Shown here one piece after another: positions 20,374-49,385 of a stretch of DNA of 64,000 nucleotides. The stretch lies in assembly GCA_902540655.1 (NCBI GenBank), contig CACBNQ010000001.1:1-64000 (forward strand). Reading direction: 5' to 3'. The translations under genes and the position numbers were made by a program. The stretch is from an uncultured Alphaproteobacteria bacterium. GTDB taxonomy: Bacteria; Pseudomonadota; Alphaproteobacteria; Rhodobacterales; Rhodobacteraceae. Below the pieces are notes generated by a model that was not told the origin of the DNA, did no database searches, and worked only from the letters and a program-made list of their open reading frames with translations. Within the stretch, counting starts at the first letter, position 1; every line of letters starts with the position of its first letter.

Positions 20374-20461
20374 ATGTCATTAGATGTCCTCCGATTTCAC
20401 AACTCCCTGTTTTTATTGACGTTTTAACACTATGCGTGTTCATCCTATGTCATGGGATGTC
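20374..20461. repeat. Direct repeat pair beside the presumed attachment site
   Basis: ATGTCATTAGATGTC at 20374-20388 and ATGTCATGGGATGTC at 20447-20461 match at 13 of 15 positions. Each is itself a double ATGTC. They lie between the tRNA end and the integrase, where integrase arm-binding sites are expected. Confidence 0.5.
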
Positions 20462-20480
20462 ACGTACGTTTGGGGCCATT

Positions 20481-20514
20481 TTGTGGACCAGTTGTGGGCT
20501 GGTTTGTGGGCTGG
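20481..20514 (+). repeat. Three tandem 11-base units upstream of integrase
   Basis: TTGTGGACCAG (20481-20491), TTGTGGGCTGG (20492-20502) and TTGTGGGCTGG (20504-20514) follow each other with 0-1 base between them, ending 25 bases before the chosen integrase start. The spacing of about one helical turn suggests a protein-binding array, for integrase arms or an autoregulator. Confidence 0.5.
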
Positions 20515-20539
20515 AACCAACAGAAAGGGAAAGAAAGAT

Positions 20540-26105: not shown

Positions 26106-26107
26106 CT

Positions 26108-31512: not shown

Positions 31513-32073
31513 TTGGACCGCAAAACAAACTGGCAAGTTTTGATTGAAGATCAGCTTAAAGACTCATACCAAAAGCTGTTTGATAGGATGTTTTATCTAC
31601 AGAGTAAAAATGGTTATAGGAATGAAAGTGAAGCGGAAGAAATAGTTCACGACACGTGTGTACGATGCATAGAAAAAATGGACCAATTTGATGGGAAACA
31701 TTTTCTTGCCTGGGCACGTACGATCCTCGAAAGAATATACATAGATAAAGGACGGCGTAAAAAAAATTATGACGTTATCCTTACAGATATCAGAAACATG
31801 TCAGAGGCATATCTCAATGTTGACGTTTCAGAAGAAGTATATACCAACATAGCGTACGAAACTTGTCTTAAAAAACTTAGTGAAAAACAATATCAAGTTT
31901 TCTATTTGCAAATTAATGGACGCGATGATCGATCAGGGAAGCCAATGACGACTGAAAGAATGAGTAAGCTTCTAGGCATGCCACTTGGAACCCTCTTACC
32001 TCTCCTTGCCAGGGCAAAGAAATCATTTTCGAACTGTCTTTATAAACAATTACAGAGCACTAATGAGGAATGA
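31513..32073 (+). CDS. ECF-type RNA polymerase sigma factor
   Basis: 186 residues; TTG start with GAGG 8 bases upstream and no better ATG. Region 2 is seen as SEAEEIVHDTCVRCIEKMDQ and FLAWARTILERIYIDKGRR; region 4 as LKKLSEKQYQVFYLQING with the HTH MTTERMSKLLGMPLGTLLPL. The insert DDRSGKP before the HTH is unusual. The downstream anti-sigma gene overlaps its stop (ATGA). It probably directs transcription of island genes when the anti-sigma factor releases it; the caspase-like gene facing it is a candidate target. Confidence 0.88.
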   Translation: MDRKTNWQVLIEDQLKDSYQKLFDRMFYLQSKNGYRNESEAEEIVHDTCVRCIEKMDQFDGKHFLAWARTILERIYIDKGRRKKNYDVILTDIRNMSEAYLNVDVSEEVYTNIAYETCLKKLSEKQYQVFYLQINGRDDRSGKPMTTERMSKLLGMPLGTLLPLLARAKKSFSNCLYKQLQSTNEE

Positions 32074-33404: not shown

Positions 33405-36012
33405 TGCGCACAAAGATAAATTCGCCACCTCGACTATCTACATTCTTAATTTGGGTATATGTAGGCACTTGATTACTATTTAGCTCAACGCTGTTTTTTA
33501 TGCTTTGATCAAAAAGTTGCATTGCAGTAATAGGTTGTGAAACTTTAGTAAGTGCTAACAAAAAATACTTAACAAAAATCGAATTTTCTCCTTGAGCAGC
33601 ATCAAAGATAGGTTCATCACCACCAGCAGTCATTACCCATCGTGACTTCAATTGACTTTTCTGTTCGAGGAGCTCTCTTTGAATTGATTTTACAGCGTTT
33701 TTCTCCTTCAGTCGTTTCTCTGCAAATATTCCTGAGAAACATGAGTCAATAACGAGTAAAATATGTTTGGCATCTGAGGCTTCTATTTCGTCTAAGATAG
33801 CACTATTGGAAATCCATGTGTACTTCTTCTCAGGGTCCGCATCAACTGGAAGCCAGTGACCTCTATCAGTCTTTTTATCTTTTTCACCGTGGCCAGAATA
33901 AAAAATTAATAAGTTATCACTTTCAGTAAGTTTGGTTCTGTAACTATATAATGTATCCAAAATCTGTGTTCGAGATTGGTTTATCAGCAATTCGGTTTTA
34001 AAATTGAATTTTGTTTTAAGTATCTCATTTACAGCCTTCGCATCAACAGCTCCTGTGTTTAATTTATCGACGTTTTGATAATTATCATTTCCAATTATAA
34101 GAGCATAATAATTACCAAACTCTATCTCTTTACCCTCATCAAAGACAGGATCACTTTTTATATCCGTCGAAGATGACAAAACCTCCACTAAAAAAGATGC
34201 TTCTGAAATTCCGAGGGATAAAGCTTTTTGAGCTTTAAGGAGGGCCATATTACTATCTTTCTGCGTTCCATCTCCCCTGAAATATGCCTGAGCAAGTAAA
34301 TAATGGGCACGACCATCATCGTTCTCGGAGGCCTTATTAAGCCACTCGAATGCCATGAATGGATTTTTTGTTGTACCCACGCCTTTGCTGTAAAACTCGG
34401 CTAACTCCCTTTGAGCCACAACGAGCCCATTTAATGCAGCACTCTGCATCAATTTGAATGCTTCTGTCGGGTTAGGAGAAATATGTACTCCTGAAGAATA
34501 CATTTTTGCCAGATGGTATTTAGCGTTAGCATCATCCTGATCAGCGCTTTTTCGGAACCATTCTATTGCGTCTTGGATGTTTTTGATAACTCCTTGGCCA
34601 TCAAGATAGGCTAACGCCACATTTGTCATCGCCTCTCTATAGCCAAGATTAGCGGATTTAACAAACCAACCAAAAGCCTGTTGCATATCTTTAGGGGCTC
34701 CTAAACCATCTCTTAAAGCTCTGCCAACTTCATTTTTCGCAATCTTATTTCCTCCCTCTGCAGATAGAAGAAACCATTTGTATGCCTCTGAAAGGTTTTT
34801 CTCAACGCCACTCCCAGTGCTGAAAGCCAATCCTAATTCCAGTTGCGCGTCAGGATTATTTTTATCAGATGCAAGCATAAACCATTTGAAAGCGTCTTTT
34901 AAATTCTGTTGAACACCCATACCTGTTTTAAAAAGAAGCCCAACATCATATTGGCTATTTGCATCTCCTTGATTTGCCGCCTTTTCAAACAAGGTGAAGG
35001 CTTTATTTATATCTCTCTCAACAAAATCACCTTGTAGATACAGCTGACCAAGAGCAAACAAACTGTCAACATGTCCTTCATCTGCTGCTTCTTCAAGCAT
35101 TTCTAATGCCTTTAATCTATCCTGTCTAATCCCATCACCATTAAAATATGCCTGTGCTAGGGCATGTTTTGCTAAGATGTTGCCTTTATCAGCGGCTTTA
35201 CTGTACCACTGTATTCCATCTCTTTTATTTTTTGGGACTCCGAGACCTTTGTAGAGCGCATCCCCAACTCTAAACTGACCTTCAGCGTTTCCCTCTTTAG
35301 CTGTCTCAGCAAAATTTCTAAAAGACGTTACAAGATTTCTTTCAATACCTTCCCCAAATAGATAGTTATTTCCAAGTCTTATGAGACGCTGGTGCTCTAA
35401 GTTCGTCATCGCTCTTTCATACCATTTTTCAGCCTCTGCTTTACTGCGTTCAACACCTTGACCCGCTAAATATCTATCCCCCAATCGCATTTGCGAATAG
35501 GGGTTATCTGCTTCCGCACCACGTTTAAGCCATTCAAGCGCCTCTGTAATATCTTTTACTACTCCCTCACCCTCTAAATAAATTTGGCCAAGGCTTGCAA
35601 AGGCCATTGGGTTTCCATTCTCTGCCGCCATTTTGTACCAAATAATAGCTTCGTTTATATCTTTTTGTGTTCCTAGACCTCTTCGTATTGCATCAGCAAG
35701 GAGTACCTGTGCATCGGAATTTCCAGCAGAAGCAGCCAGACGAAACCACTTAATAGCCGCTTCAGTATTTTTCCTGATACCGTTTTTTCCCTCGGAATAT
35801 ATTAGTGCCAACTCCAACTGACTTTTTGGAATTCCAGCCTCTGCTGACCTTTTAAGTTTTACTAAATCCAGTTTTTCGGCAGCATATAAAGCAAAGCCAA
35901 AGCACAATATACTTAAAGTCATCATAAGAACGGTTAATACTTGACTGGACTTTACCCAAGCTAAAAATTGTGCTGAATTGAGAGGCCTTAAGTTTAAAAA
36001 ATTAGAAACCAT
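33394..36012 (-). CDS. Sel1-repeat protein with C-terminal caspase-like protease
   Basis: About 872 residues from ATG 36012; a TTG at 36039 is in frame but has poor spacing. A membrane segment at about 25-45 is followed by some fifteen Sel1/TPR-like repeats (units such as AxxWFxxAAxxGNxxAQ), then a caspase-fold C14 domain from about 625. The catalytic dyad is complete: His708 in YSGHGEKD and Cys758 in DSCFSG. GNYYALIIGNDNY begins the protease domain. The repeats likely bind partner proteins. Its orientation tail-to-tail with the sigma/anti-sigma pair and its protease activity suggest an inducible envelope-linked response or cell-death effector; that is inferred. Confidence 0.9.
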   Translation of the reverse strand: MVSNFLNLRPLNSAQFLAWVKSSQVLTVLMMTLSILCFGFALYAAEKLDLVKLKRSAEAGIPKSQLELALIYSEGKNGIRKNTEAAIKWFRLAASAGNSDAQVLLADAIRRGLGTQKDINEAIIWYKMAAENGNPMAFASLGQIYLEGEGVVKDITEALEWLKRGAEADNPYSQMRLGDRYLAGQGVERSKAEAEKWYERAMTNLEHQRLIRLGNNYLFGEGIERNLVTSFRNFAETAKEGNAEGQFRVGDALYKGLGVPKNKRDGIQWYSKAADKGNILAKHALAQAYFNGDGIRQDRLKALEMLEEAADEGHVDSLFALGQLYLQGDFVERDINKAFTLFEKAANQGDANSQYDVGLLFKTGMGVQQNLKDAFKWFMLASDKNNPDAQLELGLAFSTGSGVEKNLSEAYKWFLLSAEGGNKIAKNEVGRALRDGLGAPKDMQQAFGWFVKSANLGYREAMTNVALAYLDGQGVIKNIQDAIEWFRKSADQDDANAKYHLAKMYSSGVHISPNPTEAFKLMQSAALNGLVVAQRELAEFYSKGVGTTKNPFMAFEWLNKASENDDGRAHYLLAQAYFRGDGTQKDSNMALLKAQKALSLGISEASFLVEVLSSSTDIKSDPVFDEGKEIEFGNYYALIIGNDNYQNVDKLNTGAVDAKAVNEILKTKFNFKTELLINQSRTQILDTLYSYRTKLTESDNLLIFYSGHGEKDKKTDRGHWLPVDADPEKKYTWISNSAILDEIEASDAKHILLVIDSCFSGIFAEKRLKEKNAVKSIQRELLEQKSQLKSRWVMTAGGDEPIFDAAQGENSIFVKYFLLALTKVSQPITAMQLFDQSIKNSVELNSNQVPTYTQIKNVDSRGGEFIFVRTKN

Positions 36013-36288
36013 TTCGTTTTTTTCTCTTTGACACTTCAATCCTCCAAAGAACGAAGAAAAGTAAGATAAGTAGCGGCTGAAGAATTATAAATATAATTAT
36101 ATTTAAAAGATTATAACCTAGACCCGTCCACCTTCCCCAATCTTGAAGTATTTGACGCAAGCCCAAAAAAGCCAATCCACATCCTTTTGAAATTCTTTTG
36201 CTGACCACCAGTCAAAATATGTAAAAAAAACATACCCCGTACCTATAGTCAAAATTAAGATTATTATTGTAAATCGAATAACTTTCAT
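36002..36288 (-). pseudogene. Small membrane protein, TGLGYN family, frameshifted
   Basis: Reading from ATG 36288 gives MKVIRFTIIILILTIG (membrane segment) and then VDWLFWACV, matching DMLFWWCV of the intact paralogue at 30178-30477. The match then continues in the other frame as RQILQDWGRWTGLGYNLLN and a second membrane segment ending at 36002. A one-base shift is therefore needed near 36150-36170, next to a run of six T on the coding strand. The 3' frame is otherwise open only from an internal ATG at 36208. It is a disrupted gene, a sequencing error, or a -1 frameshifting gene. Confidence 0.6.
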
Positions 36289-36492: not shown

Positions 36493-36821
36493 TGTACTAT
36501 TTTATTAGCTCATGCAGATATTTCAATTATGCTAATGCAAATCAAATAAACATAAGGTTGTTGTTCAAATAATAAGGTAACTTTACTTTCAAATATAGCG
36601 TATCGTATTATTAATCAGTATTAAATAGCATTTAAGTTTAGATGAACATATTATGCTGACCCATCTTAATCGACCGATGAATAACACAGGCAATTACTTC
36701 TTAAAGTTAATTTATTTCCCAGATTGGATAACACTTTGTCTTTTTAAAATATGTTAATAAAATATTTTCAGAGCTTCAGTCTTGATATAAAATTAAACCA
36801 ATATATAGAATGGAGAGGAAA
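36493..36821. other. Intergenic region between divergent units
   Basis: 329 bases with no open frame I would call a gene. Very A/T-rich. It must carry the promoter of the rightward ParB-led operon; TTGATA at 36782 and TATAGA at 36804 (16 bases apart) are the only pair I see, but they would give a very short leader. No clear operator or hairpin. Confidence 0.5.
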
Positions 36822-37895
36822 ATGATTAGTAGAGATGATGTAGACATTGATAAAATCATGTTGAATCCTGATAATCCAAGACTTGCTGAAGCAAAACACA
36901 ATAACCAATCCAAATTAGACCAGGCAGAGGTTGATTATTATTTGAAAGCGTCTGCAGATGACCACCAAAAAGCTTTGAGAGCATCTATAATAACAGTTGG
37001 AAGGATTACAGAGCCTATCCATATTCAGAAATTGAAAAAGTCTGAGGATGGATTTGAGTATGTTGTCTTGGAAGGGAACAATCGCCTTAAGGTATATAAA
37101 GACCTACATAAGGATTTTGCAGATAAAAGTGATTATAAAGGTCAATGGAAGAAAATCCCGTGTGAAGTATATGAGAACTATGACAGGGATATTTATGACC
37201 AAATACAATTAACTTCCCATGTTATAACAAAAAAACCATGGGAACCCTATGCTCGAGGGGAATATTTATACAAGTTACAGAAATCTGGTAAGACACTTGG
37301 CGAACTGGCCGCGATGTGTGGTGGCGATGTTAGAAAGAAAAATTTGCAGCAAGAAATAGATGCTTATAAGCATATGCAGAAATGGAGAGACCCAGAGAGA
37401 GATAGTAAACAGAATGAACTTGATTATAACCCTGGCGAATACCAAAAATTTTATCAATATCAGTTAAAAAAATCGAGTTTTAATGATATGGGCTTATCGG
37501 AAGACATTTTCTTGGACATGATAGCCCAAGACAAAATTTCCTATGCTAGAGATGTTAGAAAGCTGGATACAGTTTGGTTAAATCGAAATTTTACGCCTGA
37601 AGAAAATGAGCAGGTAAAAAACGAATTAATGAAAGATGGCGGTGACACAATACAAGCATTTGCAGAACGTGACCGATTATTGGCTGCGGGTAAAACGGAC
37701 GCTCTTAAGGTAGACGAAATCATCAAACAGGCAAAAAGCCTCACGAGTGGTATAAGAAGCTTTACCCAGCTAAGCGAAAGAGAAAAATTAGCAAAAGACG
37801 AAAACAGCGTTCAAGTTTTTGACCTTTTGGCTGAAGAAGTGAATGATTTTATTGAAGAACTAAGAGACATACAAAAATACATAGTAAACAACTAA
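36822..37895 (+). CDS. ParB-like nuclease-domain protein (first copy)
   Basis: 357 residues from ATG 36822, chosen because GGAGAGG lies upstream (the ATG at 36810 contains this site). An N-terminal ParB/sulfiredoxin-like fold shows LNPDNPRL (about 14-21) and VLEGNNRLKVYK (about 82-93), the place of the ParB CTPase/nuclease box. A middle helical region with KPWEPYARGEYLYKL and an HTH-like stretch follows, then a helical C-terminus. It is related in layout to the second ParB-like gene at 39803. First gene of the ParB-nuclease-helicase operon; no ParA partner exists, so plasmid partition is unlikely. It may bind DNA or nucleotides as the recognition part. Confidence 0.82.
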   Translation: MISRDDVDIDKIMLNPDNPRLAEAKHNNQSKLDQAEVDYYLKASADDHQKALRASIITVGRITEPIHIQKLKKSEDGFEYVVLEGNNRLKVYKDLHKDFADKSDYKGQWKKIPCEVYENYDRDIYDQIQLTSHVITKKPWEPYARGEYLYKLQKSGKTLGELAAMCGGDVRKKNLQQEIDAYKHMQKWRDPERDSKQNELDYNPGEYQKFYQYQLKKSSFNDMGLSEDIFLDMIAQDKISYARDVRKLDTVWLNRNFTPEENEQVKNELMKDGGDTIQAFAERDRLLAAGKTDALKVDEIIKQAKSLTSGIRSFTQLSEREKLAKDENSVQVFDLLAEEVNDFIEELRDIQKYIVNN

Positions 37896-37900
37896 ACTTC

Positions 37901-38359
37901 ATGCCCGACGCTGCACATGATATGTTTGAAACGTACCTACGGAAGTTTTTAAAAGACCGCTTCCCAGATTACTATAACTCTGAAAAATATGAAATTTATG
38001 GCAAATGGGACCCGAGCTTAACCTCAAATAAAAAGGAACGAAGATTTCGCGGTGCTATTCCAGATTTAGCCATTTTATCGAAAGAATCTTATGAGGTCGT
38101 TTGTATCGGTGAGGCAAAAAGGCTAGAAGATTTTAGTACAAAAGGATTGGACCTGTCCTACCGTAGTAAGATCCAGTCAATGGAGTATGTGGATTGGCTT
38201 TTAGCGCATAAAGATCAATATAAGAGGCTCGAGTTGGTTTACTCTGTACCAAGAACATTTCATGCGACTACAAACAACATCTTAAAGAGAATGCTATCAA
38301 AAAAAAGTATTCAAATTGACACATTTGTTATAAGTAAATGGCCATTGGAAAATGCATAA
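37901..38359 (+). CDS. PD-(D/E)XK-like nuclease
   Basis: 152 residues. The core shows IPDLAIL with Pro54-Asp55, a strand YEVVCIG, then Glu71-Ala-Lys73 in GEAKRLEDF, the PD-(D/E)XK catalytic layout. No other domain. Five bases after the ParB-like gene, and overlapping the helicase start by 8 bases, so the three are co-translated. Probably the DNA-cleaving subunit of the system. VRR-NUC or Holliday-junction-resolvase-like relatives are alternatives within the same fold. Confidence 0.75.
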   Translation: MPDAAHDMFETYLRKFLKDRFPDYYNSEKYEIYGKWDPSLTSNKKERRFRGAIPDLAILSKESYEVVCIGEAKRLEDFSTKGLDLSYRSKIQSMEYVDWLLAHKDQYKRLELVYSVPRTFHATTNNILKRMLSKKSIQIDTFVISKWPLENA

Positions 38360-39803
38360 TAAATACCAACATAGGCTGGAGCCACTTGACTTTCAGGAAA
38401 AAGCTTTCAATAAATTCAAATCCTCTGATATCGCAGCAATTTTTTTTGAGCAGGGTTTAGGAAAGACTAAAATTGCAATTGACTTAATGCTCCATTGGTT
38501 GCAAAACGGTGACCTTGACAAAATGTTTATCGTTGTCAAAAAAGGTCTCGTAAATAACTGGTATAGTGAAATTAAAAAACATACTTTCATGATCCCAGCA
38601 ATACTTTCCAATACGAAATCGAAAAATACTAGTGTTTTTATGTCTCGTGTAAATGTTTTGGTTTTGAACTATGAAATAATACTGAACGAATTTGAGAGAA
38701 TTTATGATCTTGGAAAGATTAGAAATCTTGGCATAATTTTAGATGAATCGGCAAAAATAAAAAACCCTGAAGCAAATATTTCAAAGAAGCTTCACCAAAT
38801 TTCAGACAGGTTCAAAAAAAAAGTAATCATGACAGGAACTCCTTCAGCAAATAGGCCCGAGGACTATTGGTCCCAAATATTTTTTTTAGATAGAGGCAAA
38901 TCTCTGGGCGAAAAACACAAGGTATTTTTTGAAAAAGTAAAAATTTCTAATGATCTTGTAGATGACCCTCAGTATCAAAATAAATTAATTAAAAACATAG
39001 AAGATATCAAAGAAAAGATTGCAGGTTTCACATTAAGAGAAACTAAAGATAGCTCGAGTATAGAACTCCCTGAAAAAATATTTGAAAATATCTTTATAGA
39101 ATTTTCTTCTGAACAAGGAAAAATTTATACGAAAGCGCTCACGGAATTGAGAACAAAAATAGAGAAGGAAAACATCTCATTTGAAGATAACGTAGAGGCA
39201 TTTTTAAAAAGAATAATTAGAATAAGACAAATTTGTTCGAACCCCAAAATGCTTGACTTAAGTTTTAACGAAAAGACTAACAGGTTACAAAAAACTCTGG
39301 AGCTAGTTCGATCGATAGCTGAGAAAAATGAAAAATGTATTATATGGACCTCCTTTAAATATAATATCAATTATTTGAAAGTATTCTTAGAGAAATTTAA
39401 TCCCGTTGCTTTAGACGGATCAATGCAGAATGATGAAAGAAAATTGAGTGTAACAAGGTTTCTTGAGCAAGAAGATACCAAGGTTTTGATAGCAACTCCT
39501 CAGTCCTCTAAAGAAGGACTTACTTTAACAGTTGCAAATCACTGTATATATTTTGACAGAACACTCAGCTTAGATGATTATCTTCAGTCACAAGACCGAA
39601 TACACAGAATAGGTCAGACTAAAAATTGCTTTTATTATAATCTTATAATAAAAAACTCGGTTGACGAGTGGGTTGAAAGTCTTATTGACGCAAAATCTTT
39701 ATTCGCAAAGCTTTCTATTGGAGACATATCTAATGTTGAGTTTTCAGAAAAAATAAAGTTTAATTTTGGAGAATTAATAAAAAAGGTACTCGAGGTAAGT
39801 TAG
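38352..39803 (+). CDS. SNF2-type SF2 helicase/translocase
   Basis: 483 residues with both RecA domains and little else. Motif I is QGLGKTK (about 34-40), motif II LDESAKIKNP (Asp131-Glu-Ser-Ala in place of DEAH), motif III MTGTPSANRPEDYW, motif V TPQSSKEGLTL and motif VI QDRIHRIGQTKNCFYY, which is characteristic of SNF2 enzymes. Such proteins track along duplex DNA and remodel bound proteins. Similar short forms occur in phages and defence operons. It starts inside the nuclease gene and ends in TAGTG shared with the next gene's GTG start, so a complex is likely. Confidence 0.9.
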   Translation: MHNKYQHRLEPLDFQEKAFNKFKSSDIAAIFFEQGLGKTKIAIDLMLHWLQNGDLDKMFIVVKKGLVNNWYSEIKKHTFMIPAILSNTKSKNTSVFMSRVNVLVLNYEIILNEFERIYDLGKIRNLGIILDESAKIKNPEANISKKLHQISDRFKKKVIMTGTPSANRPEDYWSQIFFLDRGKSLGEKHKVFFEKVKISNDLVDDPQYQNKLIKNIEDIKEKIAGFTLRETKDSSSIELPEKIFENIFIEFSSEQGKIYTKALTELRTKIEKENISFEDNVEAFLKRIIRIRQICSNPKMLDLSFNEKTNRLQKTLELVRSIAEKNEKCIIWTSFKYNINYLKVFLEKFNPVALDGSMQNDERKLSVTRFLEQEDTKVLIATPQSSKEGLTLTVANHCIYFDRTLSLDDYLQSQDRIHRIGQTKNCFYYNLIIKNSVDEWVESLIDAKSLFAKLSIGDISNVEFSEKIKFNFGELIKKVLEVS

Positions 39804-40903
39804 TGGCCGAAGAAGTTATTAATTATCAGAATTTCGAATTTGAAAAGGTTCCTTTTGAGAACCTTAAGTTTTGGCTTGATAATCCGAGAGTCTCCGATTG
39901 GTTTAAAGAAATGCAAGAAAGGCCCGGTGAGATTACAGATACTGATGCTAAACAGTATTTGGTTCACGGTGAAGGTAAAGAAGAATACAAAATTCAGAAA
40001 TTAGCTGATGATATTTGGAAAAATAATCTAGCTGATGAACTACTTGTTAATAAGATAAACCCATCGGGAGAATATATAGTTTTTGAAGGAAATCGGCGTC
40101 TCGGCGCACTTCATTATATATGGGAGACGTGGGGCGACCTCGCTAGCACCAAAGAAAAATTCACAGATATAAGTTGCAAAGTATATAATAACCTTGATGA
40201 AGACAGTATGCATCAGCTTGTCAAGATGTACCATGGGGAAGGCAAAAAACTTAGTTGGACACCTTATGCAACGGCTTTAAATAATTATTTAAGACATATG
40301 AACGGTACCCCGATAGAAAAGTTGGGCTATCAAGGTAAAAAAAATTCGATTCAAAAGGCGCGTACCGAAATCGAAGCAATTAGGTTAATGAATAGAAATG
40401 GAGTAACACAAAAAGACCGCTTTTCATACTTTTTGGTTTATCAAAAGTTTCTTGAACAAAAGGCGAGGAAAGATAGCAATCAACTTTTATTAGATAAGAT
40501 TTTTCCCGATGATAAGGAAGTAAATCTCAAAAAACTGGAGTACAATTTAGTCCAAGTATTTTTGTCAGATAGAAAGAACCACGGCGCAATAAATGTAAGA
40601 AATACATTGAAAGAAGTGTCTAAGAGTAAACTTGGTCAGCAAAAACTTAGAGCTTTCGTTCAATCAGGGGATTTCGATACTCTTCAACGTTGGGCTGAAG
40701 GAGCTGCTCCCTCTGGTAACGCTGAAAAGGTAGTATCTGGAATTGCTGATGATTTATGGAATCACCGAGACATAATTGAAAAAGCTATGGAAAAAAGTGG
40801 AGCAAATCTTGGGAAAAGAAACAAGATGAGACAATTACTCAGAAAAATTTATGCCTCTCTTTCAAAATATGACCCAGAACTATTTCCAGAAAAAGAAGAC
40901 TGA
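39803..40903 (+). CDS. ParB-like nuclease-domain protein (second copy)
   Basis: 366 residues, GTG start overlapping the helicase stop. The ParB-like core shows FWLDNPRV (about 23-30) and YIVFEGNRRLGAL (about 91-103). The middle has KLSWTPYATALNNYL, matching KPWEPYARGEYLYKL of the first copy. The two are therefore diverged paralogues. The C-terminus is helical (SGNAEKVVSGIADDLW). Two different ParB-like subunits around a nuclease and helicase suggest a heteromeric recognition complex. No ParA. Confidence 0.82.
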   Translation: MAEEVINYQNFEFEKVPFENLKFWLDNPRVSDWFKEMQERPGEITDTDAKQYLVHGEGKEEYKIQKLADDIWKNNLADELLVNKINPSGEYIVFEGNRRLGALHYIWETWGDLASTKEKFTDISCKVYNNLDEDSMHQLVKMYHGEGKKLSWTPYATALNNYLRHMNGTPIEKLGYQGKKNSIQKARTEIEAIRLMNRNGVTQKDRFSYFLVYQKFLEQKARKDSNQLLLDKIFPDDKEVNLKKLEYNLVQVFLSDRKNHGAINVRNTLKEVSKSKLGQQKLRAFVQSGDFDTLQRWAEGAAPSGNAEKVVSGIADDLWNHRDIIEKAMEKSGANLGKRNKMRQLLRKIYASLSKYDPELFPEKED

Positions 40904-40998
40904 TTAAGGTTTCGGCCTAATTTTTAGGACTCATAATTTTTAAAAAATAAAGATATGGAAACCACGACTTAACGCTTTAACTTTGTGTTGCTCGCTTG

Positions 40999-41004
40999 TA
41001 TAAT
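40999..41004 (+). promoter_or_regulatory. Perfect -10 element (TATAAT) directly before the radical SAM gene
   Basis: TATAAT at 40999-41004 ends five bases before the ATG at 41010, with a weak -35 (TTTAAC) 17 bases upstream. There is no ribosome site. If used, the transcript would begin at or near the start codon and be leaderless. Confidence 0.4.
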
Positions 41005-41009
41005 ACGCC

Positions 41010-42626
41010 ATGGCAAATAAAAATATTTTACTTATCGAGCCCGACTACAAAAATAAATACCCTCCTCTAGGTCTTATGAAAATAGCACAGTATCATGGAC
41101 CTAATGGGAAGAGGGATAACGTCAAGTTTATTAAAGGAAAAGATAAAGAAGTCGAGAAACAAGTTTGGGATAGAATATACATCACTACCCTTTTCTCTTT
41201 TGAATGGAATAAAATATCCGAAACGATTGATTATGCTTCTAAAATAACAAACCAACAACATAATAAAATTTTTGTGGGTGGTATTGCGGCATCACTTATG
41301 AAGGGTAAGTTTTTAGAACAGGATAAATGGCGCGGCGTTCGAGTTATAGGAGGTTTGCTTGATAAATCGCCATCTGAGTCTTTAGAGCTTGATGAATTTG
41401 AAGAAGAATTATATTCAGATGACCTCTCGAGCACACCGATAGAAGACCTGATTCCAGATTACAGTATTTTGGACCAAGTAGATTACAAGTATCCAGTCTA
41501 TGATGCTTATTTTGCCTACGCTACACGAGGATGTGTTAGAAAGTGTTCTTTCTGCGGCGTACCAAAATTGGAAGGAGGAATGAGAGAGATGCCTCCATTG
41601 TCAAAGATTGTAAATGGGATAACCAATTTATATGGGGAAAAGAAAGACCTGATCTTGATGGACAATAACGTAGTAGCCTCTCCGCGTCTATCTGAAATAA
41701 TTGATGAGGTTGTGGACCTTGGGTTTGGTCCAGGCGCAACCATAATAAATTCGATAACAAAAAAACCAAATGTTAGAAGAGTAGATTTTAATCAAGGTGT
41801 TGATGCGCGAATCCTGGCTAAGTCTGAACATTTTATGAAACAATTAAGTAGGATTTGCCTATCGCCCCTTAGGATTGCATTTGACCATGTCGGTTTAATG
41901 AAACCTTATGAGCAAGCAGTTCGATATGCAAGTGCCTCTGGATTAAATTTTCTTTCAAACTATATGCTTTACAATTTCCACGATAGCCCTACTGACCTTT
42001 TTCAAAGAATGCGGATTAACGTGAGTTTAAATGAGGAACTAGGAACTCAGATATATTCATTTCCAATGCGCTATCAACCAACAGACAGGCCTGATAGAGG
42101 GCACATTGGTAAACATTGGAATAAATATTATTTGAGATCGATTCAGCTTATACTTCAGGCAACTCATGGGGTTGTTAGTGGATCGCCCGATTTTTTCAAA
42201 AAAGCCTTCGGTGATACTGAAGAAGATTTTCATAATATTTTGAAACTTCCTCACAAGTTTATTTTTCATCGTGACTGGTATCAAAAATATGAGGGGCGTG
42301 CTGAGTTCGATGAGTACAGGTCACAATATAACAGTCTATCAGAATCTGAGAAAGAAGAGGTCTTAGAGTTATTATGTGAAAACACACAATCTCGTTATAA
42401 AGAAGCCTCTATGATGCTCAAGAATACGAAAGTACAGAATGTAGTTAAATTTTTTGAACCGCTTACAGCTGAGGAAACAATTAACATTTCACAAAAACAA
42501 AAGAAGCTTAAAAGTGAAAGTTTTGAAATTAAGATGATGGACGATGAAATAGTAGAGGACGCTGGTTTAGATCATGACCCAGAAAAAGAAACCGTAGAAC
42601 AATTTAAATCAGTTATAAACAGATAA
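41010..42626 (+). CDS. Radical SAM enzyme with B12-binding-like N-terminus
   Basis: 538 residues. The N-terminal about 140 residues look like the Rossmann domain of B12-dependent radical SAM enzymes (NILLIEPDYKNKYPPLGLM). The 4Fe-4S motif CVRKCSFC places Cys175, Cys179 and Cys182. DLILMDNNVVASP and FNQGVDARIL follow in the barrel, and a helical C-terminus of about 150 residues is extra. The enzyme would cut SAM to a radical and modify an unknown substrate, such as a base, tRNA, nucleotide or protein. It lies 106 bases after the second ParB-like gene and 2 bases before the GHKL gene. The start is fixed by the conserved N-terminal strand. Confidence 0.85.
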   Translation: MANKNILLIEPDYKNKYPPLGLMKIAQYHGPNGKRDNVKFIKGKDKEVEKQVWDRIYITTLFSFEWNKISETIDYASKITNQQHNKIFVGGIAASLMKGKFLEQDKWRGVRVIGGLLDKSPSESLELDEFEEELYSDDLSSTPIEDLIPDYSILDQVDYKYPVYDAYFAYATRGCVRKCSFCGVPKLEGGMREMPPLSKIVNGITNLYGEKKDLILMDNNVVASPRLSEIIDEVVDLGFGPGATIINSITKKPNVRRVDFNQGVDARILAKSEHFMKQLSRICLSPLRIAFDHVGLMKPYEQAVRYASASGLNFLSNYMLYNFHDSPTDLFQRMRINVSLNEELGTQIYSFPMRYQPTDRPDRGHIGKHWNKYYLRSIQLILQATHGVVSGSPDFFKKAFGDTEEDFHNILKLPHKFIFHRDWYQKYEGRAEFDEYRSQYNSLSESEKEEVLELLCENTQSRYKEASMMLKNTKVQNVVKFFEPLTAEETINISQKQKKLKSESFEIKMMDDEIVEDAGLDHDPEKETVEQFKSVINR

Positions 42627-42628
42627 AG

Positions 42629-43936
42629 ATGGAAGAAAAAAGTAGTAGTGCGGTATCGGTAGATCAAATTACAGTAGGAAAAGACTTACTTGAGCTTTTG
42701 TCATCAGGTATGTACCTAGACCCTCTGACGATCTTTAGAGAGTATGTTCAAAATTCATGTGACTCAATTGAAGAAGCTGTCAAAAAAGGGGCGCTAAACT
42801 CTAATGACGAAGGACGAGTGTCAATAAGTATCAACCCTATAGACCGAACAGTGACCATTAAAGATAATGGAATTGGTATAGGATCAATATCTTTTCTTAA
42901 AACATTATTATCATTCGGTAATAGTGGAAAAAAAGAAACAGATGCCAGAGGGTTTCGTGGAATAGGGCGTCTTGCGGGTTTAGCTTATTGCCAAGAACTT
43001 GTTTTTCATAGCAAAACAAAAGAAGAAGATACGGTAAACGTTTTAACATGGGACTGCCGAAAACTTAAAAGTTTACTAGTCGATCCAAAGATAAAGTCTG
43101 GGCTGGCAGACATTGTGTCTCAGGCAACTAAATCAGAAAAGTTTAAGGCAACTAGTGAAACAGATAAGCACTTTTTTAAAGTAGAAATGAAGAAAATACT
43201 CAGAATAAAAAACGATGTCCTTCTAAACGCAAGCTTAATCGAGCAATATTTATCCCAAGTCGCTCCAGTTCATTTCTCAGATGATTTTAAATTTAAGGAG
43301 CAAATAAGGTCTCATTTAAATAAATACTGTAATCTACAAGAACATAATATCTTTATTGGGGAAAATAAGGTCTTAAGACGTTTTAGAAACCATTTTGAAT
43401 TCTCTACTAAGGTTACCGATTACTTTACAGAATTTGAGGAAATAAAAGTTGTAGATAATGATGAAAATTTGCTAGCCGTCGGATTTTTACTTCATCATTC
43501 TTACTATGGAGCGATAAATAGGACTGCCGATATCGCAGGATTAAGAGCAAGGTCTGGAAACATTCAAATTGGCACTAATGTATTGTTTCTCGATCTTTAC
43601 CCCGAGCAAAGATTTAATGCATGGACCATAGGTGAGATACATGTATTGAGCGATAAACTTGTTCCGAATGGGCGAAGAGACGACTTTGAAAAAAGTAACC
43701 AATATTACAATTTTTTAAATTATGTTAGCTTAATTACAAAAAGGGTTTCTGACATATGCCGTCAGAAATCTCTCCAGAGAAATCAAGAAAAGGTGTTCGA
43801 CTTTTCTAAAATTAAGTCTCAAAGGAAAGATGAAAGTGCAAAGAACATAATCAAAGAGGTTAAAAAAAGCATAAAAGACGAAAAAAAACTTACATTGATC
43901 AAAACAGTAATATATGACGAGCTTTCTAAGTACTAA
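42629..43936 (+). CDS. GHKL/HSP90-like ATPase
   Basis: 435 residues. The N-terminal GHKL ATP-binding domain is well preserved: FREYVQNSCDSIEEA (Glu38, Asn42, Asp45), IKDNGIGI (about 77-84) and GFRGIGRLAGLAY (108-120) forming the lid. The C-terminal half has an HSP90-like middle domain and a basic helical end, without a histidine-kinase phosphoacceptor domain. MORC- or HSP90-like enzymes use ATP-driven dimer clamping on DNA or protein. Directly after the radical SAM gene, it ends the rightward operon. It converges with the 842-residue gene. Confidence 0.88.
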   Translation: MEEKSSSAVSVDQITVGKDLLELLSSGMYLDPLTIFREYVQNSCDSIEEAVKKGALNSNDEGRVSISINPIDRTVTIKDNGIGIGSISFLKTLLSFGNSGKKETDARGFRGIGRLAGLAYCQELVFHSKTKEEDTVNVLTWDCRKLKSLLVDPKIKSGLADIVSQATKSEKFKATSETDKHFFKVEMKKILRIKNDVLLNASLIEQYLSQVAPVHFSDDFKFKEQIRSHLNKYCNLQEHNIFIGENKVLRRFRNHFEFSTKVTDYFTEFEEIKVVDNDENLLAVGFLLHHSYYGAINRTADIAGLRARSGNIQIGTNVLFLDLYPEQRFNAWTIGEIHVLSDKLVPNGRRDDFEKSNQYYNFLNYVSLITKRVSDICRQKSLQRNQEKVFDFSKIKSQRKDESAKNIIKEVKKSIKDEKKLTLIKTVIYDELSKY

Positions 43937-43999: not shown

Positions 44000-46528
44000 T
44001 TAAATACCTAGAATTTTTTGCCAAAAGCCTTTCTTTTGCCAATAAAATCCTTTACTTCTCTGATATTTTAAACCTTTACTCTTTGCCTGCTCAATTATCT
44101 CTAATAAAACGCTTGCCTGAGAAAAACTTAAAGACTTATTTTTTTCAACTTTAATTATACACATGTCAAGAAAATCGATATGTTCCTGCAAAAAATCACC
44201 CCTTGATTTTAACCATTGCCTGAGGGTTTTCAACTCACTTGGCGAATATGAATCTGCTTCACTGATAACCTCATCTTTATTAATTGATACTTCAAATTTT
44301 ATCTTTTCTTTCTCATCTTTTTTACTTTTAACTTCCTCCTTTTTTGAGGTAGCCTCAGAGGATAATTCTTTTTTGAGGTTTGCAGGCTTCCATTTATAGA
44401 GCTCCTGCAAGCTCACATTGGTCTCGGCAGTATTATAGGAGATACACTTAAAGACGATATGCACGGGTTTGTTTTGCTGAGGTACATGCCATTCATACTC
44501 TAACGTTCCACAGTAGATAAAAGGCAGTGAAGTTCCTTTATGCTTTTCAATCATTCGACAAAATAAGAGTACTGTTAACTCTTTATTTATTATTTTTTTA
44601 ATCATAGGTGTTTCAAGATGTTGATTATTTTGACTGTCCCAATGAAAACTATGTTCGTTAAAATAATCGTTGTATTTAAACTCGACCTCTTTATTTCTCT
44701 TATCTAAAGTGCAAAAGAGAAAAATATATTTCTTCTTGAATGATACAATTCCTTCTCGAGAGATCGAAAACCTATCAGTTTTTAGAACTTCATCTAAATC
44801 TCTCCTCTTATATTTTTTTCCACGCTCAAGACGATGGTGTATCTCAATAGTATTTTGTTCAGAGGAATTGGAGGGTTCTTTTGGAATACTTTTACCGCGT
44901 GGTTCAGACATTGCTGCACAGTACTGACAGCGGTTTGTTCCGGGCGCAACTTCCAGTCTAATTTTTTCTAGGGGCTCACCGCACCGCTCACAAAATTCAT
45001 TGGAATAAAGAGAGATTCCCTTTTTATCAAGCATATATATGAGAGATTTTCTACTCCTTTGGAAATATTTTTCTAATTCTTCAAAGTTTGTTTCTGACTG
45101 ATATTTATCGAGTAGTATGTTTTTCTCTAATTCCGTTATTTTGAAGCCATGATTCAATAAAAAACCTTTCTTCAAATTTTCCACCCTTTTTTCTTCTAAC
45201 TCTGTTTTTAATAAACCCGTTTCTTCAAAACCTTCTTGTTCCTCAATTTTAAAAAAATCTTTGAACTGATCTTGGTACTCTGGTGGTAAAGTGTCTCTAT
45301 TTTCCCCAAATTCACTTGCTTGATAGCCCATTCGTTCTGCTATTTGGAATAATTTTTCAACTCTATCTATTATCTCCTCACTCATTTTTAGATTGTCTGA
45401 TGGTAATTCACCATATTTACTATACTCCTCTAAAATCGGTAACGCTGACTGAAGGATTTCTCGGTCTTCAATCTCAATTTTTTTAGTCCTTTTTGACCAT
45501 TGAATTAATTGCTGTATTTCAGCGGATCCTTTTTCTTTAAGCACATGAAAAGTTTTAGAAACTTTGTCATTATGGCGCTTCTTAGGTATCTCCTGTGTAG
45601 TTGCCTTTGGTATTTTATTTTTTCCTAAAGGCTTATACGACTGCAACTCAGAAATTACTTTCTTGAAAGGATATTGATCAATTTTAGAATTTATATTGTC
45701 AGTTTTAATACCAAGAGAATCTGGTAGGTCATAATCAACAGAGCCCCTTAAAGCATAATCAGCAAACTCTTCATCTTCGTGTTCTTCATAAGTATCTGTT
45801 TGTTCATCTAAATCAAAAGCGTCCCCGGTCGTGCTATTAATCAAAATTTTGTCATCATATCGTTCTTTATGTCGAATTCTTTCCGGTTTATTTTCTTTCT
45901 GAATTTTCTCTTCCTCGTTTATTTTTTCAATAGTATTTTTTCTTATTCTTTTCTTTTCATCAAAGCTGGGGTCCTTGGCTTTAATTAGTGTCACTAAATC
46001 ACAAATATTAAACTCAATATTCAAATCGATTAAAGTTTTTGTCTTAATGGAATATCTTTTCATCATTATTCCATCAGAAAATAGTGATATACGCAGTCTC
46101 TTTACTGGATACTCGAGAATGATATCAGCTAGGTCGCTGGCATTCTCTGTTGCCCGGAAGTCATTTTTATTTGCTTTTTTCAGGCCAACAAAAAAATTGT
46201 AAACATTTAAAATTTTATCATAAAGCGAATCTTTATTGAGAAGATACTTTGACTTAGCACCCTCGAAACAGGTTGTATAGAGATCAAGTATTTCATCCTC
46301 GAAATAATATGCATAGCCTTCGACCATTTTTGCTTTCCCTTCAAAAGGTCCTGTAATCAATTCTCCTTTGAATTGAGAAAACTTATCAGTACAATGAATT
46401 AGAAAGTCATCAGATGATATTTCTTCCTGACCATTGCCGCCGCCCTTAATAAGAAATCTTAAATCGTTTAACTCTTTCGATATACGATCATTTATATCTC
46501 TTGTCTCGTTTAACTCATTATTTGGCAT
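44000..46528 (-). CDS. Large hypothetical protein with DksA/TraR-like zinc finger
   Basis: 842 residues, mostly charged and helical. At about 510-537 a four-Cys finger CERCGEPLEKIRL...CQYC matches the DksA/TraR C4 zinc-finger pattern, although the protein lacks the rest of DksA. A Glu/Asp-rich stretch lies around 230-260 (YEEHEDEEFADY). No helicase or nuclease motif is obvious. It lies 27 bases after the SF1 helicase on the same strand and may be its partner. DksA-like fingers can contact RNA polymerase or DNA, so a regulatory or polymerase-directed role is possible. Not recognised beyond the finger. Confidence 0.65.
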   Translation of the reverse strand: MPNNELNETRDINDRISKELNDLRFLIKGGGNGQEEISSDDFLIHCTDKFSQFKGELITGPFEGKAKMVEGYAYYFEDEILDLYTTCFEGAKSKYLLNKDSLYDKILNVYNFFVGLKKANKNDFRATENASDLADIILEYPVKRLRISLFSDGIMMKRYSIKTKTLIDLNIEFNICDLVTLIKAKDPSFDEKKRIRKNTIEKINEEEKIQKENKPERIRHKERYDDKILINSTTGDAFDLDEQTDTYEEHEDEEFADYALRGSVDYDLPDSLGIKTDNINSKIDQYPFKKVISELQSYKPLGKNKIPKATTQEIPKKRHNDKVSKTFHVLKEKGSAEIQQLIQWSKRTKKIEIEDREILQSALPILEEYSKYGELPSDNLKMSEEIIDRVEKLFQIAERMGYQASEFGENRDTLPPEYQDQFKDFFKIEEQEGFEETGLLKTELEEKRVENLKKGFLLNHGFKITELEKNILLDKYQSETNFEELEKYFQRSRKSLIYMLDKKGISLYSNEFCERCGEPLEKIRLEVAPGTNRCQYCAAMSEPRGKSIPKEPSNSSEQNTIEIHHRLERGKKYKRRDLDEVLKTDRFSISREGIVSFKKKYIFLFCTLDKRNKEVEFKYNDYFNEHSFHWDSQNNQHLETPMIKKIINKELTVLLFCRMIEKHKGTSLPFIYCGTLEYEWHVPQQNKPVHIVFKCISYNTAETNVSLQELYKWKPANLKKELSSEATSKKEEVKSKKDEKEKIKFEVSINKDEVISEADSYSPSELKTLRQWLKSRGDFLQEHIDFLDMCIIKVEKNKSLSFSQASVLLEIIEQAKSKGLKYQRSKGFYWQKKGFWQKILGI

Positions 46529-46555
46529 AGACGCTTCATTACACTATTTAGCTTT

Positions 46556-49156
46556 TCAATCATCAAAAGTTAATGTCCTATTATTTCTTATTTCTCCCAC
46601 AACACTTCTTGAAAATAAGCCTCGGACCCTGGGTGATTTTTCAATATCTCTTAACGCGTCATTGATAGATTTCCATTTTACTCGTTCTCCATCCCGAACA
46701 GCACCTCTACCATCAACCAGTTCAATAAATTTAGCTTGAGCTTCTCTCGACAAACCAATTGCACTTTTTGTGAACATAAAATCTTTTCCAGAATATTCTT
46801 TAGGGTCATCTGCAATGAACTCTGCATCGTCAGCACTAAATTCCGGTATTTTTTCAGGCTTTACAAAATTATCGTAGTTATACCCATCTGGAAACCAATC
46901 CTTCCACTGAGCATTTTGGATTAATCTTTCTTCAACATTTAACCAATCACTTTTTTCGCCATTAAAAGATAATATCAATTCGTCCTTTGCTCTTGTCATT
47001 GCCACATAAAGCTGACACCCATATCGATATCTTTCATCTTGGTCTACATCTGCCGGAGGAAGAATATCTTTACTACAATTCAAAATAACCATTAGATCAA
47101 ATTCGTAACCTTTGGTCTGCTCCAAATCCGATAATACTAACCTGTCATTAATAGGTGTATCATGACCTTCCAAAAGTCGTAAGCCTACCTCAGTGGCAAA
47201 CCGCCTCATTTCAAAATGAGTGTAGCCAGCAATTGCTATGCAGCACCTCGAATTATTATCTTTGGTATATTCATTTATATATTGTCTGGCATAAGCAAAT
47301 TCCTCTTCAAGCGAATTTGCACTGTATATCCAGGGAGCACTTGAGTGACGATTTGCAAATTTTGGGTCAAGCAACTCTAGGTCATCATCTTGAACAAAGT
47401 CATCAACCAGATTTTCAAGCAAAACATGATAAGCGACCTCTAAGATTTGTTTCGTATTCCGGTAGTTTTTTAGAACCTTTCGTTTATTTGCATTATCTAT
47501 TTGAATACCCGCTTCCTTGAAATTTCTTTGCTTTGGAAGGACAGTTTGTGAAATATCTCCACAAAGAAACAAATTTTGGTTCGTATCTGCTGATCTAGCC
47601 AAAATTGCTAATTCTGTGGTTCCAAAGTCTTGCGCTTCATCAACAATTATATGTGTATACTTTGGCTCAAGTTGCTCTAAATATTTCGATAGTGCCGTAG
47701 TAAGCCCCAAATAGTCAATAATACCTACCGACTCCATTTTTTCTTCCCAAAGCTCTAGACCGGTTAGGATCTCTTGTTTGCTTTGTTCATCAAGACTTGT
47801 TCTTCTACCCTTCCTGCTAGCGTGTAAATAGTCACTCCTTTTATCCTTAAACCAACCACTGCGTATCCAATCGAACTCCTCTCTAATGTAATGTTCTGCA
47901 TTTACACCTCTTGCAAGTAAATTGCGGTGTACCCTCTCTAGCACTTTTGCATCATCATTATTATTTTTTTGCCGGTAATATTCACGAAAAACCTGGTCTA
48001 TGTGCTCGTCTAAATCATTTTTTTCTGAATAGTAGTTTTTTCTCTTTGGCTCAAACTCTCCAAGATACTTTTGAAATAAAGAGAATAGTGAATGTACCTC
48101 AATTACCTCAGAGCATTCCTTTTCTGGGTCCATATGCTCTAATAATTTTTTTATTAAGCCAGCAAGGCAGGGGTTTAAAGTAACCACCAGAATTTTTCTA
48201 TTTTTATCCTCTTGAGCTAGTCTAAAAGCACGTTTAATCGCTATGCAAGTCTTTCCGGACCCAGAAATGCCAGAAAGCTGTGAGGGGCCCTGAAAGTCTT
48301 CTCTCATTATTTTATCTTGGTCTGGATGCATAAATAGAAACCAGTCTTCCAGCGAACCATACTTTGAGAAATTATTGATATAGTCATTGTACTCTTCGGA
48401 GCCAATTCTAAGAACTTTAAAACTATCCCCGCTAACAACTTCTATCAAGTCTTCAGGGTCGACATCAGAAATCTCTTTTGCTTCGCCTACATGAAGCTCA
48501 ATTAAATCTTGTGCTGTCTCAACATCTTTTTGCAAAAGAGCATCAAATACGTCTTTAAGTAATAAGCCAAGCTCTTTCTTTTCGATACTTTTGCTTACCT
48601 CTATAAGTTCTTCGGGGGAACAGTTTGTTGTCACTCTGCTAATTTCCAAAACTGCAGAGCTTGGAAATAATTCTACAAATTTTTTAGCTTCATTTTTGGG
48701 AAGCCGGTCAAGTAAAGGTACCGATGCTTGTTGGTGGTCAGAAAGCCAGTCTGTGCCAGTCACGACGTCCTCCACAACATCGATACTTGGTTTTAGCGCC
48801 TTTATTTCGCCGTTTTTGTCCACAATTGGTGTGAAGTTCTTATTTTTATTGATCCATTTGTCTACACTGTCATGGTCACCAGCAAAGCATAAAATTATCA
48901 TTTTATCTTTTTGAACAGTTACTAACCTAGGAGCTTGTGGCCCCCCAAGTTCATACTTTATACAACTTTTAATTCTATTTTCACCGTGGTCCGTAACTTT
49001 TAAATTTCTAAACACATCTCTAGGATTTGTTTTATGTTCTTGCAAAGCGACTAGAACACCAGCAACTTTTTCATATGGTTTTTTAAACAAACTACCCTTA
49101 TTTCTAAAATCTCGTAATGACGAATGGAAATCTTTATATACAAGTGCTGCTTCCAT
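46556..49156 (-). CDS. UvrD/Rep-like SF1 helicase
   Basis: About 866 residues from ATG 49156 (GAAGAAAATT upstream); a TTG at 49189 is also in frame. The N-terminal about 290 residues form an unassigned domain. Helicase motifs follow: GISGSGKTCIA (Walker A at about 297-304), IIVDEAQDFG (Asp506-Glu-Ala-Gln), NYRNTKQILE, and LYVAMTRAKDEL near the C-terminus. UvrD/PcrA-like enzymes unwind DNA 3' to 5'. The long N-terminal extension without AddB-like or nuclease signature suggests a defence-type helicase. It begins a two-gene operon with the zinc-finger protein. Confidence 0.9.
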   Translation of the reverse strand: MEAALVYKDFHSSLRDFRNKGSLFKKPYEKVAGVLVALQEHKTNPRDVFRNLKVTDHGENRIKSCIKYELGGPQAPRLVTVQKDKMIILCFAGDHDSVDKWINKNKNFTPIVDKNGEIKALKPSIDVVEDVVTGTDWLSDHQQASVPLLDRLPKNEAKKFVELFPSSAVLEISRVTTNCSPEELIEVSKSIEKKELGLLLKDVFDALLQKDVETAQDLIELHVGEAKEISDVDPEDLIEVVSGDSFKVLRIGSEEYNDYINNFSKYGSLEDWFLFMHPDQDKIMREDFQGPSQLSGISGSGKTCIAIKRAFRLAQEDKNRKILVVTLNPCLAGLIKKLLEHMDPEKECSEVIEVHSLFSLFQKYLGEFEPKRKNYYSEKNDLDEHIDQVFREYYRQKNNNDDAKVLERVHRNLLARGVNAEHYIREEFDWIRSGWFKDKRSDYLHASRKGRRTSLDEQSKQEILTGLELWEEKMESVGIIDYLGLTTALSKYLEQLEPKYTHIIVDEAQDFGTTELAILARSADTNQNLFLCGDISQTVLPKQRNFKEAGIQIDNANKRKVLKNYRNTKQILEVAYHVLLENLVDDFVQDDDLELLDPKFANRHSSAPWIYSANSLEEEFAYARQYINEYTKDNNSRCCIAIAGYTHFEMRRFATEVGLRLLEGHDTPINDRLVLSDLEQTKGYEFDLMVILNCSKDILPPADVDQDERYRYGCQLYVAMTRAKDELILSFNGEKSDWLNVEERLIQNAQWKDWFPDGYNYDNFVKPEKIPEFSADDAEFIADDPKEYSGKDFMFTKSAIGLSREAQAKFIELVDGRGAVRDGERVKWKSINDALRDIEKSPRVRGLFSRSVVGEIRNNRTLTFDD

Positions 49157-49385
49157 AATTTTCTTCAACAATAGGTTATATTCAGTCAAATATCGGGAGT
49201 ATAAGAATCTCCAAAAGATAGATATTTTAGTACAGCTTATAAACCTTTCTCAAGAAATTAATTATTATTAGCAATTTGGTGTTGATAAAATTTTATAGAT
49301 AGTGTATCTGGATAGGATCTTTCAATTAGCTAAAAAAAATGTGGCAAACCTCTTTGCTCATTGTTGCTATTGGAAGGATTAAATC

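Follow-up and report, generated by a model that had tools for sequence, protein, structure and literature searches.

A candidate undescribed conflict system that joins a radical SAM–GHKL core to a ParB–nuclease–SNF2–ParB cassette

The 64,000-nucleotide contig stretch analyzed here (the window) belongs to an alphaproteobacterial draft genome of 1.66 Mb and carries six consecutive genes for a ParB-like protein (ParB1), a small nuclease (Nuc), an SNF2 enzyme, a second ParB-like protein (ParB2), a radical S-adenosylmethionine (SAM) enzyme (rSAM) and a GHKL ATPase. Do these genes form one system, and what would such a system do? All six open reading frames (ORFs) are intact and lie on the plus strand in this order, and their junctions are, in turn, a 5-base gap, an 8-base overlap, a 1-base overlap, a 106-base gap and a 2-base gap. 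An original prediction had taken the set for a candidate defence system. The strand, gene order, gaps, motifs and residues K73 and C175 that it gave were confirmed, and so was the six-gene span apart from its start: ParB1 starts at 36810, and the ATG at position 36822 lies within its ORF, four codons further on. Judged by the sequence evidence that follows, the six genes very probably represent the SAR116 version of one functional, mobile and undescribed conflict system.

The set is not peculiar to this genome. In a scan of one genome per species covering 84,980 species, 324 stretches encode relatives of rSAM. All 105 loci in which genes were called and clustered into families hold rSAM, and 99 hold the GHKL ATPase. 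The SNF2 cassette occurs in 50 of them and a small DGQHR protein in 44, followed by a PIN_8 protein (30 loci), a DGQHR-HEPN fusion (19) and HerA with a NurA-like protein (5–6). The original prediction had staked itself on the order recurring in unrelated genomes, and it does so in dozens of them from at least nine phyla (Pseudomonadota, Acidobacteriota, Verrucomicrobiota, Chloroflexota, Gemmatimonadota, Nitrospirota, Actinomycetota, Binatota and Latescibacterota), which is more than chance would produce. The neighborhoods thus keep these genes together, and the rSAM and GHKL genes did not turn out to be a housekeeping pair, the other outcome that would have spoken against it. A ParB gene flanks the SNF2 gene on both sides in 44 of 51 cassettes, mostly with short overlaps or gaps. 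The copies reside on plasmids, in integrated elements and in chromosomes, and integrases or serine recombinases adjoin many of them. In a tblastn search, rSAM was found on 12 alphaproteobacterial plasmids, with ~60% identity across 97% of the protein. The order ParB-nuclease-SNF2-ParB followed by rSAM-GHKL is retained on plasmids of Mesorhizobium, Rhizobium sophoriradicis and R. leguminosarum, and a Roseomonas plasmid carries the cassette in reversed orientation. Among viral contigs, a single-sequence rSAM query gave no match, whereas an alignment query did.

The link between rSAM and the cassette can also be approached from the other side, with searches that were based on SNF2 and ignored rSAM. 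An SNF2 alignment recovered nine members of the cassette SNF2 family from viral contigs (32–44% identity; the next matches, ordinary phage SNF2 proteins, reach 30% at most). ParB and nuclease genes border each of the nine, and rSAM and GHKL genes of the same families lie close to eight. In the ninth (L188, 5188-10443), which has no GHKL gene, a short, distantly related rSAM gene of the phage type (motif CIRQCAFC) overlaps ParB1; here the cassette has been paired independently with a radical SAM enzyme. Likewise, all seven plasmid records with a cassette SNF2 also hold an rSAM gene. In total, a radical SAM gene stands near 16 of 16 cassettes and no cassette without one appeared, with the qualification that the rSAM search had likewise matched all seven plasmids and part of the nine viral contigs.

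The set was originally described as a single six-gene system. The recurrent set stands, but it had to be refined into two units that co-evolve internally, an rSAM-GHKL core and a replaceable ParB-nuclease-SNF2-ParB cassette, and the six-gene version is a reduced form without the DGQHR gene. Distance correlations are 0.80 for rSAM and GHKL and 0.83–0.91 among ParB1, Nuc, SNF2 and ParB2, whereas those between the two blocks are only 0.34–0.56. On an rSAM tree of 71 loci (a quick tree; the association tests ignore kinship), the cassette was gained or lost at least 17 times, the PIN gene 12 times and the DGQHR-HEPN gene 11 times. The two distance blocks and these repeated gains and losses show that the units move separately and meet again repeatedly, and with at least 17 changes of state the association of core and cassette must have been rebuilt many times.

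The protein families named in the original prediction are all supported by profiles, models and conservation. Scans of the window proteins against Pfam, NCBIfam (June 2026), PHROGs and PADLOC-DB (2023) did not by themselves identify ParB1, ParB2 or the nuclease, for which profiles and models were required. ParB1 and ParB2 are ParB/Srx-superfamily proteins, both by profile and ParB1 also by model. The ParB1 profile matches Noc (4e-4), and its AlphaFold2 model, with a predicted local distance difference test score (pLDDT) of 89.9, finds KorB (5.5e-7) and Spo0J (5.6e-4) in Foldseek; phmmer against the Protein Data Bank (PDB) and a search of phage records gave no match for ParB1. The ParB2 profile matches ParB (1.7e-3), and its N-terminal domain alone matches the PADLOC family PD-Lambda-5_A (2e-8). 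The characteristic motifs are EGNNR in ParB1, EGNRR(L) in ParB2 and NPR. ParB2-like matches in five other alphaproteobacterial genomes (69–109 bits) have no other family of the system within about 3.5 kb around each and were assigned to other families. Four loci (L056, L064, L073 and L078) have three ParB-like genes rather than two in or beside the cassette.

For the nuclease, the libraries gave no match and a profile search of the PDB only chance matches. Its identity follows from conservation of the predicted active site in 33 diverged homologues, where H6, P54, D55, E71, K73 and Q92 are conserved, the last five in 90–100% of the sequences. With PD54-55, E71-A-K73 and the downstream Q92, the sequence of this 152-residue protein is that of a PD-(D/E)XK nuclease. 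The SNF2 protein matches PF00176 (E=9e-31), and its motifs, among them GLGKT and R416IHRIGQ, are invariant in a 28-member alignment.

A Pfam match of rSAM to Radical_SAM (E=1e-3) lies below the Pfam cut-off, and the assignment is settled by the structure model. The AlphaFold model (pLDDT 90.5) predicts a radical SAM barrel between an N-terminal Rossmann domain and a helical C-terminal domain. Its best Foldseek match is MiaB (1.3e-10, several of the entries being RNA-bound), followed by MtaB, TokK, CysS and RimO; the MiaB-type match covers rSAM only in part, with TM scores of 0.40–0.50. The matches to TokK and CysS are accompanied by a B12-binding domain match of E=0.25 only. MiaB-type methylthiotransferases require three further cysteines for an auxiliary cluster. 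We considered and rejected a MiaB/RimO-type methylthiotransferase, because the cysteines of the C175-x3-C179-x2-C182 motif are the only invariant ones in a 35-sequence alignment. At an E-value of 0.01, rSAM matches no PADLOC family, viperin included. It is the most conserved part of the set, with a median pairwise identity of 0.62 versus 0.29 for the nuclease. The GHKL protein matches HATPase_c_3 (PF13589, E=2.9e-10), is nearest to HtpG/Hsp90 by profile (2e-12) and keeps all its nucleotide-binding boxes in the alignment (N-box REYVQNSCD, DNGIG and GFRGIGRL). It lacks the last ~90 residues of most relatives, as do the SAR116 forms (430–436 residues versus ~525).

Short phage relatives of rSAM, of the phrog_9298 type, were found in viral contigs (L112-L176). 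Of 64 loci, 16 have a DNA methyltransferase gene within five genes of the rSAM relative and seven have a PP-loop/PAPS-reductase-like gene directly beside it; these relatives may be phage DNA-modification enzymes.

The partners of the core vary. The small DGQHR gene, where present, lies just upstream of the rSAM gene, typically with an 8-base overlap, and its product matches TIGR03187 (2e-41) and, more weakly, DpdB and DndB. It was not found in the window's genome by one query that had no positive control in that genome, and the SAR116 relatives lack it as well. Since the missing DGQHR gene and the short GHKL protein are common to the window and its SAR116 relatives, they are a lineage trait rather than recent damage. 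Co-occurrence was assessed in the 74 loci with 5 kb on both sides: SNF2 is present in 42, the PIN protein in 29 and the DGQHR-HEPN protein in 16. SNF2 and DGQHR-HEPN are nearly exclusive, both occurring in only 2 of 74 loci (p=9e-5, kinship ignored), as expected if both do one job. The PIN_8 protein comes with a second GHKL protein, and its domain, like that of the DGQHR-HEPN protein, is of the RNase type. We take the DGQHR-HEPN protein of locus L007 (plasmid pNL1 of Novosphingobium aromaticivorans) to be Saro_3948, listed elsewhere as a HEPN-ParB fusion (PMC3710099), as the tag prefix and architecture agree. In distant loci (L011, L079, L092, L109 and L110), HerA and a NurA-like protein take the place of the cassette. 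Homologues of this pair also lie beside an rSAM gene of the same family in Marinitoga camini virus 1 (L012:7998-11824). In L039, L065, L069, L085 and L087, a second GHKL protein and a possibly Rossmann-like protein of 280–340 residues beside the core are likely a further exchangeable partner.

What, then, could the two units do together? Unit 1 would comprise rSAM and the Hsp90-like GHKL ATPase, joined in many relatives by the DndB/DpdB-type DGQHR protein, and unit 2 the ParB-nuclease-SNF2-ParB proteins. In a first step, unit 1 would use SAM radical chemistry to attach a small mark to the host's DNA, and the GHKL ATPase would load rSAM onto its substrate or assemble it there. Subsequently, the two ParB-like proteins would, as their fold suggests, bind and clamp DNA at unmarked sites, and the SNF2 motor, by analogy with its family, would travel along the DNA and bring the PD-(D/E)XK nuclease to cut it. 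At other loci, PIN_8-GHKL, DGQHR-HEPN or HerA-NurA would replace or join unit 2 as alternative or back-up effectors. We regard such a mechanism, in which the core marks DNA and a ParB-guided SNF2/nuclease complex destroys unmarked DNA, as evenly poised between right and wrong. The original prediction had put forward a model of this type, and we find it plausible and prefer it to its rivals. Tentatively, the set would then make up an undescribed class of restriction-modification (R-M) systems, where a radical SAM enzyme, helped by an Hsp90-like ATPase, installs a new DNA mark, and DNA that lacks it is destroyed by the ParB-clamp/SNF2/PD-(D/E)XK machine or by other interchangeable nuclease units. 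Anatomy, mobility and partners all suggest a role in defence against phages or plasmids.

Several observations favor DNA marking. DGQHR proteins are known from phosphorothioate and deazaguanine DNA modification (PMC4507180, PMC12839542), and ParB-type domains accompany phage DNA hypermodification (PMC12783734). A GHKL protein, an SNF2 enzyme and a restriction-fold nuclease are the make-up of GHKL-type R-M systems, and the cassette was not seen without a radical SAM gene. The closest solved fold of rSAM is MiaB, with several entries bound to RNA, and the short phage relatives occur near DNA methyltransferases. Furthermore, a highly conserved rSAM next to a diverged nuclease and diverged ParB proteins is what fixed chemistry with variable recognition and cutting would be expected to give.

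Other observations weigh against this proposal. The PIN_8 and HEPN partners are of the RNase type, which an R-M system does not need. The MiaB-like similarity of the model could point to RNA, and the additional cysteines found in methylthiotransferases are missing from rSAM. Because phages commonly carry DNA methyltransferases, the proximity of such genes to the phage rSAM genes, counted without a control set, is weak evidence. Finally, neither the window nor 19 of 42 cassette loci have the DGQHR gene, which hence cannot be essential.

The strongest competing explanation is that the core detects infection, or produces a small molecule by radical chemistry as viperin does, and switches on exchangeable nuclease effectors, no DNA mark being involved. 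It would account for a constant core with varying nuclease partners in the 74 loci and for the near-exclusion of SNF2 and DGQHR-HEPN, and it explains the RNase-type partners better than marking does. RNases in R-M-like systems have, however, been read as back-up suicide effectors (PMC10853773), and the PIN_8 and HEPN partners therefore do not decide between marking and signaling. Against signaling, the cassettes found without an rSAM query always stand beside an rSAM gene, and the presence of even a distant one without GHKL suggests that the cassette itself needs the rSAM product. The kinship of DGQHR proteins with DNA-modification systems and the lack of any PADLOC match for rSAM also argue against it, and we consider this explanation unlikely, albeit credible.

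A MiaB-like rSAM might instead modify host tRNA or rRNA, which the partner RNases (PIN_8 and HEPN) would then spare. The RNA-bound MiaB entries and these partners agree with such a function, but the fold match is partial and the partners in the window are of the DNA type (a double-stranded DNA (dsDNA) motor, a PD-(D/E)XK nuclease and two ParB folds), with no RNase domain among the six genes. This makes RNA marking improbable. More improbable still is a partition or incompatibility module that maintains the carrier element, as the ParB folds and the many loci on plasmids or beside integrases might suggest. Many copies are chromosomal, we know of no role in partition for a nuclease and an SNF2 enzyme, and, as the original prediction had held in arguing against partition, there is no ParA in the window, nor any among the recurrent families of the 105 loci. 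A chance neighborhood of unrelated defence genes, conceivable because the island adjoins a tRNA-Ser gene and an integrase and holds other defence-like genes, is contradicted by the recurrence in at least nine phyla, the reverse searches and the co-evolution, and is hardly credible.

If the marking model is true, there would be a new DNA mark and a new writer enzyme, and ParB-like clamps and Hsp90-like ATPases would gain a role in the discrimination of self from non-self. To our knowledge, no radical SAM enzyme has been established as the writer of a bacterial R-M system. The hub-and-module layout, in which one conserved core combines with at least four interchangeable nuclease partners across nine or more phyla, amounts to a natural experiment in effector recruitment. 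The system is testable, as Novosphingobium pNL1 and plasmids of Rhizobium and Mesorhizobium carry relatives in culturable strains.

The features of the locus are listed in Table 1. Within the host's genus and class the system occurs rarely and sporadically: of 21 further genomes of the genus examined, none has a full-length rSAM relative, and one of 377 good genomes of the class has a fragment only. The closest rSAM relatives (77–79% identity) come from single-cell genomes of SAR116 and other alphaproteobacteria. The start of the island adjoins the tRNA-Ser gene (20267-20356), directly followed by a tyrosine integrase (20432-21721). No downstream attachment (att) repeat of the tRNA-Ser gene was found that would fix the far end of the island. 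The upstream and spacer regions contain no convincing repeats and no Rfam family.

Table 1. Features of the six-gene locus (window positions).
Feature	Coordinates	Strand	Description	Basis
ParB1	36810..37895	+	361 residues; ParB/Srx fold, NPR and EGNNR motifs, helix-turn-helix, helical C-terminal part	ORF, AlphaFold2 model, profile
Nuc, stand-alone PD-(D/E)XK nuclease (predicted)	37901..38359	+	152 residues	conservation in 33 homologues
SNF2-type dsDNA translocase/helicase	38352..39803	+	483 residues	PF00176 9e-31
ParB2, second diverged ParB-like protein	39803..40903	+	366 residues	profile to ParB; EGNRRL, NPR
Spacer, 106 bases	40904..41009	+	position of the DGQHR gene in many relatives (L003-L010), there overlapping the rSAM start	
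rSAM, radical SAM enzyme	41010..42626	+	538 residues; N-terminal Rossmann (B12-domain-like) and helical C-terminal domains; one [4Fe-4S] site C175/C179/C182	
Hsp90-like GHKL ATPase	42629..43936	+	435 residues	PF13589 2.9e-10; HtpG profile 2e-12

Several neighbors of the locus also resemble conflict genes. Downstream, on the minus strand (44000-49189), lie genes for an 842-residue AIPR_N/TraR-zinc-finger/DUF3427 protein and an 877-residue UvrD-like helicase, which may form a further two-gene defence system. In a comparison with eight plasmid loci of the system, neither gene recurred, except for a weak UvrD match in one locus. At 31513-36039, a sigma-70-like gene is followed by a partner gene, and the opposite strand encodes an 881-residue Sel1-repeat protein with a C-terminal caspase domain (PF00656, 9.6e-21). 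A four-gene minus-strand operon at 23803-28403 is Zorya-like but unassigned, with a weakly ZorA-like protein (PADLOC 3.5e-6), an OmpA-like protein and no recognized ZorC or ZorD. On plasmid pMSNZP2077A (L004:25312-29207), CBASS-like genes (patatin, CD-NTase and ThiF family) lie a few genes downstream of the system.

How does the set compare with known systems? PADLOC, NCBIfam and Pfam hold no system model for rSAM, and no description of the gene set was found in the open-licence literature. The prediction that no named system has this set held up, as the defining features of Dpd, Dnd, Zorya, DISARM, ParABS and viperin are lacking. With type I Zorya and DISARM, the set has only the SNF2 domain in common (89 bits against a ZorD cut-off of 1500 and 21 bits against a DrmD cut-off of 610, respectively), the signature partners being absent and, for DISARM, a methylase missing from the operon. 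The SNF2 motor domain is also the only match to BREX and DpdE-type SNF2 enzymes, whose signature partners are absent too. PD-Lambda-5 and GmrSD-type ParB nucleases share a ParB-fold N-terminal domain with an E/DGNxR or DGQxR motif; however, only ~90 N-terminal residues match PD-Lambda-5 (20–31 bits) and there is no fused nuclease. ParABS differs in that the window has no ParA beside ParB and no ParA-type (deviant) Walker motif. Viperin-family radical SAM enzymes make ddhNTP. Prokaryotic viperins resemble our system in placing a radical SAM enzyme in an antiviral context, but rSAM differs in architecture (N-terminal Rossmann and helical C-terminal domains), has no PADLOC match and was never seen here as a stand-alone gene.

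The MORC/paraMORC R-M operons combine a GHKL ATPase, an SNF2 helicase and a restriction-fold nuclease (PMC2292703). The present set likewise pairs a GHKL protein with a superfamily II (SNF2) helicase and a PD-(D/E)XK nuclease and has a sporadic, laterally spread distribution. By profile, the nearest solved relatives of its GHKL protein are HtpG/Hsp90. The operon differs in having two ParB-like proteins and rSAM instead of a DNA methylase, nor was a methylase noticed in the ten most frequent gene families across the 105 loci. In the Dnd/Ssp phosphorothioation systems, modification and nuclease units decouple (PMC10853773). Separable units of this kind and a DndB (DGQHR) family protein in many relatives are common ground, but none of the six genes matches DndA, DndC, DndD or DndE in NCBIfam, Pfam or PADLOC, and a true radical SAM superfamily enzyme is present instead.

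In Dpd systems, DpdA, a TGT-like enzyme, inserts preQ0 into DNA. No TGT/DpdA match was found among the eight genes scanned and no DpdC match in the window operon, where the candidate modifier is a radical SAM enzyme. With the NCBIfam DpdE cut-off at 500 bits, SNF2 reaches 27, and the DGQHR protein, missing in the window, reaches 55 bits in relatives against a DpdB cut-off of 300. The set nevertheless resembles Dpd in that many relatives carry a DpdB-type DGQHR/ParB-like protein next to the modifying enzyme, in the SNF2 helicase, in the mobility of its islands and, if the marking model holds, in the logic of marking and restricting.

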